Shown here: positions 12,804 through 24,472 of the stretch, in pieces
Layout: every line of letters begins with the position of its first letter
Position numbering within the stretch: the stretch's first letter is position 1
Source: a virus
IMG/VR virus record: IMGVR_UViG_3300030118_001869
Location: 50,107-114,106 of that record
Length of the DNA: 64,000 nucleotides
Reading direction: 5' to 3' (one strand)
The notes under the pieces: model-generated
What the model saw: only the letters and a program-made list of their open reading frames with translations
Databases searched by the model: none
What the model was told of the DNA's origin: nothing
Translations under genes and position numbers: made by a program

Positions 12804-12830
12804 TAAAAAAAGGGCCACAATGTAGCCCTT
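12804..12830 (-). terminator. Strong intrinsic terminator/attenuator before polB
   Basis: On the minus strand AAGGGCTAC-ATT-GTGGCCCTT (plus 12810-12830; one T:G pair) is followed by TTTTTTT. It lies between the gene at 12860 and the polB start at 12785. It leaves only about 18 nt for a promoter, so it may be an attenuator that lowers polB expression. Confidence 0.75.
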
Positions 12831-12859
12831 CATTTAAAATCAAAAAAACAAAAACAAAA

Positions 12860-15132: not shown

Positions 15133-16332
15133 TTAAAATGGTAAATCATCAAAGCCGTCAGGCTGAGTTAGTTCTTCTATAATCTCTTTTCCTGATTGCT
15201 TTTTAATAATACAGTTTTTATACTCCGGTGCAAGTTTAATATCCTCTATACTAACATTAAATACAGGATTCTTGTCCTTACCAAAACCATATCTAACTAC
15301 TACTTCTTTATGTACAGTTTCTCTAATAGTTTTCCAAGCCCATTCTGTTAATGATTGCTCTTTAACTAATTCAGCCATAAGCTTTTCATAAACTTGTATC
15401 TGATAATAGTTTGTATTATGTGGAGTAATATCTTGTAAACGCTCTCTCAAAGCTTTTACATTTACTGTATTCCAGTTATTTGCATACCGTATATCATCAT
15501 AGTTCATTGTCCACATAAATGCTACTTTATCTAGGCATTCCTCTACATTACAATTAGCAAGCATTTCTACAGCTAATGATACTGCATCATTATCTCCTGA
15601 TTTTAACATCTGTGTTGTACTTACAACTTCATCCTCTGTAATTATATGTGAATCTTCATTACATATCTTGTTAATACACTTATCTAATACAAGACGGTTC
15701 TTTGTAAGTTCTCTGAATTGATTTACGTTTTCATTCTCAAGTATTACAGAATAATTACCAGGATAATTATTATCCTCAATAAACTTTCTAGATGCTTTAT
15801 TCCAATCATCATAGAATATATTTATTTCATCAGATGAATTATAACTATATCCAGTTTTAATTGCAACATGACAAGTGTCACCTAGCTTATTATAAAGAGA
15901 TTCAATGTTATCAATAAAAGAATCACTATATATAAACTTATCACTATGCTTTTTTAGTGTTTCTATAAATAGATTTAAATAATCTTTTGTATAGTAATTA
16001 TCCCAAGTTTCCGTTAGAAGACTTGCAACTAGTTTATTAGATACAATACTGTAATTAGCTTTCTTCTGATCTCTAACAACTCTTACATTATATTTATCTT
16101 TTAATGTATCTAGTTTTACCCTAGGTAATGATAACTTAGGATATCTATATAATGTAGCACCATCTATTTCAATCATATCTGGTTCAGTTGCAATATCTAA
16201 TTTTACTAGGTTTGCTACTGGTTCATTCCAACCAGTTTTTGCACCTACAAAATATCCAACATTGTCAACCTTACCTTCAAGCTTTTCTTTAGATGAGTCA
16301 CTACTTATGGTTAATCTATATGCTCTATTCAT
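15133..16332 (-). CDS. MoxR/VWA-cassette partner A, 399 aa, SSB-like C-terminal tip
   Basis: This is an unknown protein at the end of a four-gene set (VWA, MoxR, partner B, this). By eye it is a diverged paralogue of the next gene. Shared elements include LPRVKLDTLKDKYNVRVV.DQKKANYSIVS against KENLKEHGIKL...EADAVITH, an ITEDEVVS/LTHDMLNM helical block with YYDDIRYA/EIYYARRDKDL-type spacing, and a KEVVVRYGF/KEIRISNRD end. The C-terminus is GFDDLPF, strikingly like the protein-binding tip of bacterial SSB (DDDIPF). This suggests contact with SSB-binding replication or repair factors (inference). No enzymatic motif is visible. Confidence 0.75.
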   Translation of the reverse strand: MNRAYRLTISSDSSKEKLEGKVDNVGYFVGAKTGWNEPVANLVKLDIATEPDMIEIDGATLYRYPKLSLPRVKLDTLKDKYNVRVVRDQKKANYSIVSNKLVASLLTETWDNYYTKDYLNLFIETLKKHSDKFIYSDSFIDNIESLYNKLGDTCHVAIKTGYSYNSSDEINIFYDDWNKASRKFIEDNNYPGNYSVILENENVNQFRELTKNRLVLDKCINKICNEDSHIITEDEVVSTTQMLKSGDNDAVSLAVEMLANCNVEECLDKVAFMWTMNYDDIRYANNWNTVNVKALRERLQDITPHNTNYYQIQVYEKLMAELVKEQSLTEWAWKTIRETVHKEVVVRYGFGKDKNPVFNVSIEDIKLAPEYKNCIIKKQSGKEIIEELTQPDGFDDLPF

Positions 16333-17347
16333 TTTTTTCTAATTTTAAATATTCACGATACTCAGGTTTTACTGCAACCTTAAAGACATACAAATCTCTA
16401 TTAGAAATTCTTATCTCTTTTCTTACTATAGGCTCCAAGTATCTGAATGCTCTTGAAGTTAATAAATTATTTTCTTTTAGCCAAACAATCATCATCTCTG
16501 CAGTATAGTCTGTATAATCTTCAATACCTGAGTTATGATACCAATACTTTAGATCTTTATCTCTTCTAGCATAGTATATTTCATTACCACATTCTTGAGA
16601 AAGTTTCCATAATAGATGACGATTAATATCTGGATCTATTGTAGGAAGCATCTTGAATGCTAATGCTCTGTCATCTCCTCCTGCATTTATTTGTGATATT
16701 AGCATGTTAAGCATATCATGTGTTAGGGCTTGTCTTGTTGAAGATTCACCCATCACAGTTTCTACATCTATAACTGGAAAGTTCTGAGTACCTATCATAT
16801 AAGATAATACTAGTGCAGCACCTGTAAAGTAATCCATTTCATATAAGCTATCACTATCCTCATCATCCCATGACCATGTTCCACCATACTCTGCTTCATC
16901 TTTCTCTTGTTGATATAACAAATACACATCATTTCCTTTGATATGGTATGCATGATAGTTCCAAAGACTTGCTAGCAACATTTTAGTATTTATGTTAGCA
17001 CTGCTTTGATATTCTCCACTAATAGAATGATGAGTTATCACTGCATCAGCTTCATTTATATCAGTGGTAAGTTTTATACCATGCTCTTTCAAGTTCTCCT
17101 TCAATCTATCTTGGCTTACACCACAGTTTGGAAGAAGAAATACTTTTTTATATCCCTGACCAATCAACGTTTTCTGTGTTGGTTTAGTTAATATCTGTTG
17201 TATCTCTTCTCTTTTTGTAGGATCCTGTGCTAAATATACAGGTAGTAGAGTACCGTAGGCAGACACATAGTGTACTTTACTTGTGTCTGCCAAATTGTGG
17301 TAATCTAATACAGTTTTATCTACATGTGTAAAAATGTATTTACTCAT
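16325..17347 (-). CDS. MoxR/VWA-cassette partner B, 340 aa, BRCT-like segment
   Basis: The N-terminal region contains KKVFLLPNCGVSQDRLKENLKEHGIKLTTDINEADAVITHH. Its pattern (strand, R-helix, strand, EADAVITH) is reminiscent of a BRCT-type or Rossmann-like unit, at low certainty. The rest is helical, with LTHDMLNMLISQINAGGDDRALAFKMLPTIDPDINRHLLWKL and a C-terminal KEIRISNRDLYVFKVAVKPEYREYL. It lies immediately after the MoxR ATPase gene and overlaps partner A by 8 bp, so all are likely co-expressed. A substrate or adaptor for the ATPase is the best guess. Confidence 0.75.
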   Translation of the reverse strand: MSKYIFTHVDKTVLDYHNLADTSKVHYVSAYGTLLPVYLAQDPTKREEIQQILTKPTQKTLIGQGYKKVFLLPNCGVSQDRLKENLKEHGIKLTTDINEADAVITHHSISGEYQSSANINTKMLLASLWNYHAYHIKGNDVYLLYQQEKDEAEYGGTWSWDDEDSDSLYEMDYFTGAALVLSYMIGTQNFPVIDVETVMGESSTRQALTHDMLNMLISQINAGGDDRALAFKMLPTIDPDINRHLLWKLSQECGNEIYYARRDKDLKYWYHNSGIEDYTDYTAEMMIVWLKENNLLTSRAFRYLEPIVRKEIRISNRDLYVFKVAVKPEYREYLKLEKNE

Positions 17348-17349
17348 AA

Positions 17350-18630
17350 TTATTTCATTGTCATTTTAATAATTTCTGGTTTCATCATTAGCTTACTAAA
17401 CTTCTGCTTGTTACCATTATAGATAGTCCTTACAATAAGATATTTTAAATCATTTGTAAAGTAATCTTTTGTACATAATGCTTCAAGCCTATCAGTAATC
17501 TTTTGACTCACTGTATTATCTTTAGAATATACAACCGCATAGTTTGCAAGTCTTGTAGCTAATGTAGATGCAATGTCAGCACGATATGCATCTCCATCAC
17601 CAATACATCCTTTTAACTCACCAAGTATGTAATCTTGGTTATCATGAGTTAACAGATCCATTGGTGTTACAAGCTTATCTAACTTATTATTAATAAATGT
17701 AGTGAACATTGATGCAAATGCATCTCCTACACTACCTTCACCAATTAACTGTATCAAGGATAAGTTCTTTTCAAAAGACTCAAAGCTTGATATAGAATTA
17801 AAGAAGGTTGTTATAGACCTTGCATTTGTTTCTTGACTTACAAGCTCTGGATGCAATAACAAGAAGTTAATACATCTTGTATCTATATTTGCTTCTTCTG
17901 CCCATCTAGCCCAAACATTCACATCATACTTTAGATTTGCAGTAATATATCTAGTCTTCTGTGCTGCGTCAATACTATTAACCATATAGTCTCCATTGTC
18001 TGGATTTGCTGTCAATATAATATGCCAGTCTTCTGGTAATGTCCATGATATATACTGCTGTCTATCTACTAACTCCATCACTGCTTGTATGAATCTCATA
18101 TCAGCACGGTTCCAGTCATCTAATAATAGTATACCACCTTTTTTCTTATCAGCAATCCACTCAGGTGCACAGTAAGACATTCTATTCTTACCGGTCATCT
18201 TGTATCCTTGCTTAAGATATTCTTGTACTGCAAGTTCATCTACCCAAGATCCTATCTTTTTTGTTACAGTATTAGTAGTATTAAGATTAGCAAGGCTAGC
18301 GCCACCAGCTCTTTGTGCTGCTGTTACCATCTGTAAGTCATCACTACTGCTCTTTACGGGTATTTGCTTCTCTGTATACATTTGGAACTGACGTACAGGA
18401 AAACCTACAAGGTCACCTATCTCTTCTATCTGTGATAGATTTAATTTAACAAAGTCAAGGTCATTCTCTTTTGCAAGTTCAATAACCGTTGAAGTCTTAC
18501 CAATACCAGACTCACCAAGTATTTCTACTGAGACAGGATTCTTACCTTCTTTTCTTATATGTCTATTGTTTGTAATGATATGATTTACAAACCCTTTTAA
18601 TTCATCAATATTTAAATTTACTTCTGCCAT
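17350..18630 (-). CDS. MoxR-type AAA+ ATPase, 426 aa
   Basis: This is an AAA+ chaperone-like ATPase. Walker A is GESGIGKT (39-46), Walker B is ILLLDDWNRA (167-176), and the sensor-1 region is ILTANPDNG (205-213), with a following Arg (TRYI, R227). The WNRA after Walker B and TANP are typical of MoxR/RavA-type proteins, which work with VWA-domain partners to insert cofactors or remodel complexes. The VWA partner gene lies directly upstream, 7 nt away. In a phage early operon this pair might remodel a replication or host complex, but the substrate is unknown. Confidence 0.88.
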   Translation of the reverse strand: MAEVNLNIDELKGFVNHIITNNRHIRKEGKNPVSVEILGESGIGKTSTVIELAKENDLDFVKLNLSQIEEIGDLVGFPVRQFQMYTEKQIPVKSSSDDLQMVTAAQRAGGASLANLNTTNTVTKKIGSWVDELAVQEYLKQGYKMTGKNRMSYCAPEWIADKKKGGILLLDDWNRADMRFIQAVMELVDRQQYISWTLPEDWHIILTANPDNGDYMVNSIDAAQKTRYITANLKYDVNVWARWAEEANIDTRCINFLLLHPELVSQETNARSITTFFNSISSFESFEKNLSLIQLIGEGSVGDAFASMFTTFINNKLDKLVTPMDLLTHDNQDYILGELKGCIGDGDAYRADIASTLATRLANYAVVYSKDNTVSQKITDRLEALCTKDYFTNDLKYLIVRTIYNGNKQKFSKLMMKPEIIKMTMK

Positions 18631-18637
18631 TTTAATT

Positions 18638-19792
18638 TTAATTTAATTGTATTTTTAATCCTGGTAACTCTTCATTGATACTACATTGACTGCTATGAAC
18701 CCATAATGCATTCTTAGGACAGTTTTCTGGAGTATAAGCCTCACCATCTGTTAAATATATTAGTGCCGTATAAGCACGCTTTTTATTATAGTGATCAATA
18801 ACTGGTTGGAAGTCTGTACCTCCTCTACCTTTTATTTCCCAATCTTTTTTTGGATTAAATTCTTCTATAGAATTAATCTGTGTGTCACACTGTACTACTG
18901 TAATCTTGTGACCCGTCTTATGCATATGGTTTATTTCATTCATAAACTCTTTCAACTCATCAGTTGATACTGAGCCAGATGTATCTACACCAACACATAC
19001 ATGATTCTTAGTTTTAATCTTCAAACCAGGGTTATCACTATATCTTTTATTATACTTACGTCTCAGCTTTTTTGTATACACTACACTTGAGTTCCCAACA
19101 AATCTCTTGAGATATGCTCTCCAGTTAAATTTAGGTGGCTCTACATTAAGTAGCCTGCGTATCAGTTCAGCTAACTCACCAGGTATATTACCTCTTCTCT
19201 TTTCTGTTTGCTGTGCTACTTCTTTTATCTGATGCTCTATCTGTTTCTTAATCAGTTTCTTTTCTGACTCAGGTAGATTATCAAATTCATCCCATGTGCT
19301 GTGGCAATAACAAGACGTCCCATCCATTTGATCTAATAAGTTATCTAGAGATGGAGATGATCCGCTATCCTTTGCTTCAGATAACAAATCATAATAAGCT
19401 TTTGTACCTGCCTTAGTTGGTAATTTAAGTTCAGGAAAACTTTCCAATACTAAACCGCCTTCTGGTAGGCATCTGCTACTTATATATTGATTAATCTCTA
19501 AATCTGCAGCTATATTAAATAACTGTTTATCAGCATAAAGATCTCTAACAAGTAGATGTCCAAATGATATATGCAATATCTCATGTTTGAGTAGTCCTTT
19601 TCTTGTGTCATCAGTTAATGATCCAAAATATTCAGGATTGATAGTGAGCTGAACTCCAATACCGTTTTGCATAACACCAGCTGTTGGTATGTCTTTTCTA
19701 TAGGTTTTATTTAAACCAACAATAAAGAGCCCGTAAAAGGGCTCCTCAAGTATTAATGTTTTAGTTGCTTTTGATAATTGGTCTTTTACCAT
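18638..19792 (-). CDS. VWA-domain protein with N-terminal metallopeptidase-like domain, 384 aa
   Basis: The N-terminal domain has HEILHISFGH (H70-E71-x2-H74, H79), a zinc-metallopeptidase motif like that of the DUF2201 N-terminal domain. The C-terminal domain is a von Willebrand A fold with a complete MIDAS: DTSGSVS, GGTDF and YLTDGEA. This architecture is the usual partner of MoxR ATPases, here encoded next. Between the domains lies a Cys/His-containing stretch (TSCYCHSTWDEF) and a basic region. It overlaps the upstream gene by 7 bp. Substrate unknown; proteolytic activity is not proven by motif alone. Confidence 0.88.
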   Translation of the reverse strand: MVKDQLSKATKTLILEEPFYGLFIVGLNKTYRKDIPTAGVMQNGIGVQLTINPEYFGSLTDDTRKGLLKHEILHISFGHLLVRDLYADKQLFNIAADLEINQYISSRCLPEGGLVLESFPELKLPTKAGTKAYYDLLSEAKDSGSSPSLDNLLDQMDGTSCYCHSTWDEFDNLPESEKKLIKKQIEHQIKEVAQQTEKRRGNIPGELAELIRRLLNVEPPKFNWRAYLKRFVGNSSVVYTKKLRRKYNKRYSDNPGLKIKTKNHVCVGVDTSGSVSTDELKEFMNEINHMHKTGHKITVVQCDTQINSIEEFNPKKDWEIKGRGGTDFQPVIDHYNKKRAYTALIYLTDGEAYTPENCPKNALWVHSSQCSINEELPGLKIQLN

Positions 19793-20139
19793 TTTAATTG
19801 TACTTTAATATTATCTATGAAATCAAACGTGTTAATATCTGTTATACTATTATTTATATTAGTACTCAAGAGGTAAGTAAACACTTCCTGTACCTCTAAC
19901 TTTCTCTTCTTACATTCATGGTATAATGCTTTGTAAGTAAACTTATCTGGGTTAGGCCAGTCAACAGTTGGGAACTCTTTAATAAAGTCCTTGCGTCTTG
20001 ATCCGGTTAACTCTTTAGCAAACAATAGCTTATATATAGAATCAACTTCTAGGTTATGTATATTAGATACTGCTATCTCAAAGTCTGCAGTATCACCTTT
20101 TAATTGTTTAAGTGTATTTATAAAATTATCTAAGTTCAT
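19786..20139 (-). CDS. Unknown small helical protein, 117 aa
   Basis: The predicted protein is mostly helical: FINTLKQLKGDTADFEIAVSNIHNLEVDSIYKLLFAKELTGSRRKDFIKEFPTVDWP and YKALYHECKKRKLEVQEVFTYLL. It overlaps the VWA gene downstream and shares a 1-nt junction with the gene upstream, so it may belong to the MoxR/VWA operon. No family is recognised. Confidence 0.65.
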   Translation of the reverse strand: MNLDNFINTLKQLKGDTADFEIAVSNIHNLEVDSIYKLLFAKELTGSRRKDFIKEFPTVDWPNPDKFTYKALYHECKKRKLEVQEVFTYLLSTNINNSITDINTFDFIDNIKVQLKW

Positions 20140-24438: not shown

Positions 24439-24470
24439 GGGAGAAATATAAATAGGAACCCAAAAAGGTT
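24439..24470 (-). promoter_or_regulatory. Repeated early upstream element, copy 2, behind a hairpin
   Basis: GGGAGAAATATAAATAGG at 24439-24456 (plus sense) differs from copy 1 by one base. On the minus strand it directly follows a short hairpin AGAACC-loop-GGTTCC (about 24454-24472) that ends the helicase gene. The element could therefore combine a terminator for the helicase and a promoter for the next gene. Confidence 0.55.
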
Positions 24471-24472
24471 CT

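Follow-up and report, generated by a model that had tools for sequence, protein, structure and literature searches.

A MoxR-like ATPase and a metallopeptidase-VWA protein are co-inherited with dedicated partner proteins in a large group of marine phages

We analyzed a 64,000-nucleotide stretch of viral DNA (the window; bases 50107 to 114106 of the 114,106-base virus record IMGVR_UViG_3300030118_001869), which codes for a compact cassette built around a MoxR-like AAA+ ATPase and a protein that joins a metallopeptidase domain to a von Willebrand factor A (VWA) domain. The source virus, of 114 kb, is a distant relative of the crAss-like phages, and its portal protein is closest to those of crAss-like phages and of the Leptolyngbya phage Lbo-JY46 (32.6% at best). 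The genes for the VWA protein, the ATPase and two partners, P340 and P399, are all on the minus strand, tightly packed and transcribed in that order; P340 and P399 overlap by 8 nucleotides (nt), and the remaining gaps are of 2 and 7 nt. A small gene, P117, overlaps the VWA start, and a terminator-like hairpin lies within the VWA coding sequence. The features are as follows, in window positions (aa, amino acids; MIDAS, metal ion-dependent adhesion site).

19786..20139, minus: P117, small gene overlapping the VWA start and bearing the helical module; 120 homologues lie directly upstream of VWA
18638..19792, minus: VWA gene, 384 aa, with an N-terminal DUF2201_N zincin-like metallopeptidase domain and a C-terminal VWA domain (Pfam, motifs)
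19727..19744 (scanned element 19723-19748), minus: terminator-like hairpin GAGCCC-TTTTAC-GGGCTC followed by TTTATT, VWA codons 17-22 (terminator scan)
19571..19585, minus: HExxH of the metallopeptidase domain, residues 70-74; H70, E71 and H74 invariant in 12 aligned relatives
18971..18985, minus: MIDAS motif DTSGS of the VWA domain, residues 270-274; D270, T271, S272 and S274 invariant
17350..18630, minus: MoxR-like AAA+ ATPase gene, 426 aa (phrog_1297, AAA+ motifs, Midasin similarity)
18493..18516, minus: Walker A GESGIGKT, residues 39-46; G39 and G42-I-G-K-T46 invariant
18115..18132, minus: Walker B ILLLDD, residues 167-172; L168, L170, D171 and D172 invariant
16325..17347, minus: partner 1, P340, 340 aa, with a BRCT-like N-terminal fragment and a helical C-terminal half (AlphaFold2, Foldseek)
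16958..17149, minus: BRCT-like segment of P340, about residues 67-130 (Pfam BRCT PF00533, 12.2 bits)
16607..16744, minus: helical module of P340 in common with P117 and P399, residues ~202-247 (P=4.1e-4 against the profile of the P117 family)
15133..16332, minus: partner 2, P399, 399 aa, paralogue of P340 (hhalign, AlphaFold2)
15508..15657, minus: helical module of P399 in common with P117 and P340, residues ~226-275 (P=2.9e-6 against the profile of the P117 family)

Searches of viral contigs yielded hundreds of relatives, and the carriers form a large group of marine bacteriophages. Gene combinations were counted in 68 loci that were found via VWA or ATPase, are distinct by ATPase sequence and have at least 2.4 kb of downstream sequence. 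VWA is upstream of ATPase in all 68, P340 stands beside the pair in 67, and the complete series VWA-ATPase-P340-P399 is present in 65; the other three have one partner, with L020 and L022 devoid of P399 and L026 coding for one P399-like partner. Counted in reverse, ATPase and VWA are found upstream in 93 of 93 distinct partner loci. Median spacings within the cassette are 7.5, 1 and -4 nt. The cassette is a co-inherited unit with dedicated partners and not a chance run of genes. L026, a single divergent contig, may represent an ancestral state with one partner that was duplicated later. A search for copies of the cassette in bacterial hosts gave matches in only three contigs of metagenome-assembled genomes, one of which is 114,697 bases long and therefore probably a whole phage.

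The original prediction, made from the letters of the window alone, described four open reading frames (ORFs) in one direction, overlapping or separated by 2-7 nt, and it proposed a survey of their co-occurrence; the counts above give it for viral contigs. All four genes are real, but the small fifth gene (19786-20139) escaped the prediction, as did the hairpin within the coding sequence of VWA. It also held that relatives with the pair and no partners would refute it. Within the lineage there are none (0 of 68 loci), while in the distant Moorella phage MTATph1, Bacillus phage AR9 and Pseudomonas phage ZC03 the VWA protein is present and a partner is undetectable by sequence (P399 in all three; neighbours tested in MTATph1 and AR9). 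Partner profiles had no match among the AR9 and MTATph1 neighbour proteins tested, and tblastn searches for the partners in other phages gave no match.

The VWA protein matches Pfam DUF2201 (VWA-like; 1.9e-18) and DUF2201_N (metallopeptidase; 1.1e-17), both above the curated cut-offs (65.0 versus 23.2 bits for PF13203 and 67.2 versus 26.4 bits for PF09967). D97, T326 and D349 are likewise invariant in the 12 aligned relatives, T326 and D349 being MIDAS residues, so the intact MIDAS and HExxH of the original prediction hold. phrog_1314 and many RefSeq phage records label this DUF2201 metallopeptidase-VWA protein "HNH endonuclease", although its Pfam matches are to metallopeptidase and VWA domains. 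The signature AAA+ residues of the ATPase, in Walker A and B and in sensors 1 and 2, are in place and invariant across 11 aligned relatives; they include the core of Walker A, the aspartates of Walker B, the Asn of sensor 1, and R271. Its best PHROG is phrog_1297, named "ATPase" (3.9e-35), and its closest solved relative is Midasin (1.6e-8).

Some loci differ within or next to the cassette. In one divergent clade, the gene immediately 5' of VWA encodes 284 aa and has a cysteine motif, CLYNCSYC, like that of radical-SAM proteins (L020, 4371-5225; L022, 9126-9980; L023, 524-1378; also L019, L024 and L028); this gene was considered as a displaced P399 and rejected. A 127-aa gene is inserted between VWA and ATPase in L012 (11157-11540), and a 369-aa gene between P399 and the exonuclease in L016 (7913-9022). 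In L207, L209 and L261, VWA or P340 appears to be split across several ORFs, the cause being either genuine decay or an error in sequencing.

The partners are the new part of the cassette, as the ATPase/VWA pair was already known. Comparison of their profiles, built from cleaned deep alignments, gave P=2.7e-6 over 269 columns (hhalign), which makes P340 and P399 paralogues, as the resemblance noted in the original prediction implied; shallow profiles of 12 and 7 sequences gave only P 0.007, which is too weak. The structure prediction that it had also proposed, run on the partners, produced confident AlphaFold2 models (mean predicted local distance difference test score, 91.6 for P340 and 93.8 for P399) with a BRCT-like fragment, but Foldseek matched neither model to any solved structure in PDB at E<0.001. 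The BRCT fragment matches span 36-52 columns at a probability of 0.92-0.93 and E 0.29-0.42 (for P340, probabilities of 0.93 and 0.92 at E about 0.3; for P399, 2le0 at probability 0.93 and E 0.42). The single PF00533 match at E<=1 in the whole 114-kb genome lies inside P340, and BRCT is the Pfam family that matches most P340 members (7 of 73). As these matches recur across independent methods, yet below cut-offs, we call the segment BRCT-like and do not assign it to the BRCT family. Known enzyme identities for the partners were rejected, since the Pfam matches to PTPase (0.0034) and mTOR_dom (0.0086) were below cut-off and not common to most members. Distant fold relatives of the partners in BFVD come from one uncultured phage and from two metagenomic records of crAss-like or podovirus-like type.

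P117, P340 and P399 have in common a helical module of 46 residues, which is central in the two partners. Control comparisons of the P117 and partner families against VWA and ATPase gave P 0.08-0.78, and among the ORFs of the window genome the module profiles match only these three proteins. As P117 carries the module of the partners and sits directly upstream of VWA, we consider the cassette to have five genes.

These three genes show the lowest conservation among the 12 compared, while ATPase and VWA are on par with PolB. Median identity to the window over 75 complete loci is 80.8% for ATPase, 70.3% for VWA and 70.8% for PolB, versus 39.8% for P340, 31.1% for P399 and 28.2% for P117, the last found in 18 loci. 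Median ratios of nonsynonymous to synonymous substitution rates (dN/dS) are 0.077 for ATPase, 0.112 for VWA, 0.209 for P340 and 0.308 for P399, from non-independent sequence pairs picked by VWA dS. These ratios show that all four genes are under purifying selection, and the pattern suggests partners that are constrained yet faster where targets would be read. In pairs such as L048/L060 and L055/L092, dS is lower in the RusA-like gene, VWA, ATPase and P340 than in the genes that flank them, a hint that these four may be exchanged as a block, although the signal is biased because the pairs were chosen on VWA dS.

Counted from the start of the VWA ORF, the hairpin stem is at 44-70 nt; it is found at about 180 other loci, with the motif once per matching locus. 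VWA codons 17-22 are rare GC-rich synonyms (n=138): Pro is CCC in 109 (6% in the pool), Gly is GGG in 115 (8%) and Leu is CTC in 86 (2%). The codon window spanning the hairpin has the strongest bias (z=8.3) of 604 windows across the four genes. Of 101 distinct regions, 78 have the whole stem, and the exceptions are mostly from divergent clades and from phages with ordinary codons at these sites. In a set of 92 distinct hairpin-bearing regions, all 92 keep 6 pairs, with only wobble-preserving changes; as these sequences were selected for pairing, codon choice is the informative point. In a scan of IMG/VR, 77 of 77 newly fetched exact matches, among those listed, lay in frame in the VWA gene. 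The element folds with z=-4.48 and has the conserved GC-rich stem followed by a U-rich tract of intrinsic terminators, while Rfam gave no match. Its most likely role, judging from these features, would be that of an RNA attenuator. Among clades lacking it, only L018 and L016 had a terminator at the same junction upstream of VWA, which does not clearly exceed what chance would give. Other terminator-like hairpins lie on the minus strand at gene boundaries of the replication block, at 24456-24471 (upstream of a 176-aa gene) and 12809-12831 (upstream of PolB).

As originally predicted, the cassette sits inside a replication operon, with RusA, primase, Sak4 and DnaB-like genes upstream and a PDDEXK exonuclease and PolB downstream; RusA, primase and PolB also adjoin it in most relatives. 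The genome has a GC content of 33%, a Shine-Dalgarno-like 4-mer at 1 of 45 gene starts and A-rich regions upstream of starts. A-rich upstream regions with scarce Shine-Dalgarno sequences are a pattern typical of Bacteroidetes.

The original prediction of an uncharacterised phage system overstated its novelty, because the pair of MoxR and metallopeptidase-vWA proteins was described in jumbo phages in 2021, with a proposed role in virion assembly (Iyer et al. 2021, PMC7824862), and is widespread. By tblastn, the VWA protein is present in 482 phage records, including Schitoviridae, PBS1-like phages and phage G. The jumbo phage pair and the VWA relatives in Schitoviridae, AR9, PBS1 and phage G have the same architecture, an AAA+ ATPase adjoining a VWA protein with an N-terminal zincin domain, but ATPase precedes VWA in AR9, MTATph1 and ZC03, whereas VWA comes first here. 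What is added here is two paralogous partners and a small gene that shares their module. NorQ/NorD and RavA/ViaA also combine a MoxR-class ATPase with a MIDAS-containing VWA protein; the phage VWA protein differs in having a metallopeptidase domain and dedicated paralogous partners, and no respiratory or nitric oxide reductase client.

We propose, and give an even chance to, a single ATP-driven remodelling or peptidase machine whose adaptors choose an early target and whose expression is tuned by the hairpin. By analogy with NorQD and RavA-ViaA, the ATPase would form a ring and grip the VWA protein, and ATP use would put the segment that links its VWA and zincin domains under strain, so that a bound client would be remodelled or cleaved; cryo-electron microscopy of NorQD provides a precedent for an ATPase straining the linker of a VWA protein (PMC13036017). 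P340, P399 and probably P117 would be the client-recognition adaptors, with the common helical module docking them to the machine or to one another and the BRCT-like segment binding a protein or nucleoprotein target in the early or replication phase. The hairpin, as a probable intrinsic terminator or attenuator, would keep the machine below the levels of the upstream genes and tie downstream transcription to VWA translation. A replication, repair or host target, as in the original prediction, is one that we too infer, and the BRCT-like fragment makes replication or repair somewhat more plausible. The most specific form of the proposal is an ATP-dependent metalloprotease found only in phages, encoded by five genes and programmed by its adaptors; these, duplicated and BRCT-like, would pick a replication or repair target, and an intrinsic attenuator would lie in the coding start of the catalytic subunit. 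This form is doubtful, with well under an even chance of being right in all its parts; no description of this combination was found in the literature searched.

Several points weigh against such a machine. What is shown directly is that the genes are inherited together, share modules, keep their motifs intact and differ in rate; the client and the peptidase activity are putative and drawn from analogy. The ATPase scores below the Pfam cut-offs of the MoxR families (AAA_3, 16.7 versus 27 bits; AAA_5, 16.8 versus 22), and no MoxR-type family was found at E<0.001 among its relatives; the "MoxR-type" of the original prediction is thus a class call only, resting on the pairing with a VWA protein and on Midasin similarity, while its Walker motifs stand as invariant. 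The BRCT similarity is partial, covering about 40-65 residues and less than the full fold, and the Pfam BRCT scores (12.2 bits in the window genome, 14 bits in G013) are below the cut-off of 21.3. The fast evolution of the partners would also fit weak constraint instead of target choice. The hairpin is absent from divergent clades and its stem has no compensatory double changes, because the protein sequence forbids most of them; a DNA-level palindrome bound by protein is a possible alternative role.

Among other functions for the cassette, a virion assembly chaperone, with the pair and its partners remodelling and cleaving structural proteins during maturation, has been proposed for the same domain architecture (PMC7824862, which cites a MoxR-vWA system reported as needed for tail assembly in Acidianus two-tailed virus), and helical adaptors could hold virion clients. 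We consider it unlikely, as the cassette belongs to the minus-strand DNA metabolism block, apart from the terminase, portal and capsid genes in a plus-strand block, and an annotated early promoter precedes the ATPase/VWA pair of AR9. The chances are slimmer still for activation of a phage metalloenzyme by insertion of a cofactor or metal, with the partners holding the client. NorQD and related MoxR-VWA pairs do insert metals (PMC13036017), and a candidate client, the small subunit of ribonucleotide reductase, is coded in the same genome (428-1408). This gene does not adjoin the cassette, the rate at which the partners evolve is far above what a conserved client would call for, and the intact HExxH suggests peptidase action.

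The conserved core and fast third components would also suit an anti-host or anti-defence function, in which the adaptors steer a peptidase or unfoldase to a protein that serves the host's defence or replication. Bacteria do have MoxR-vWA ternary conflict systems (VMAP, iSTAND; Kaur et al. 2020, PMC7159879), which likewise have an obligate fast-evolving third component in fixed gene order with the pair. Their resemblance to the phage cassette is limited: the order in VMAP systems is VMAP-MoxR-vWA, and here there is no effector domain C-terminal to VWA, no trypsin or caspase, and no recognisable VMAP-C or STAND domain (the partners gave no Pfam, NCBIfam or PADLOC match to VMAP-C or inactive STAND, although VMAP-C itself was not compared directly). 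The vWA component is fast evolving in VMAP systems and slow here, no PADLOC family match was convincing, the partners are under purifying selection, and near-universal retention in the lineage argues for a core over a facultative function. This account is improbable as well.

Pairs of metallopeptidase-VWA and AAA+ proteins occur in hundreds of phage records, and no experimental role in phages was found in the literature searched. Apart from this, the hairpin, with its conserved synonymous sites, exemplifies a regulatory element that overlaps phage coding sequence and can be tested quickly. This lineage ties the pair to one or two specific partners, which gives a direct handle on what the machine recognises, as a known but uncharacterised phage core comes here with dedicated, testable partners.

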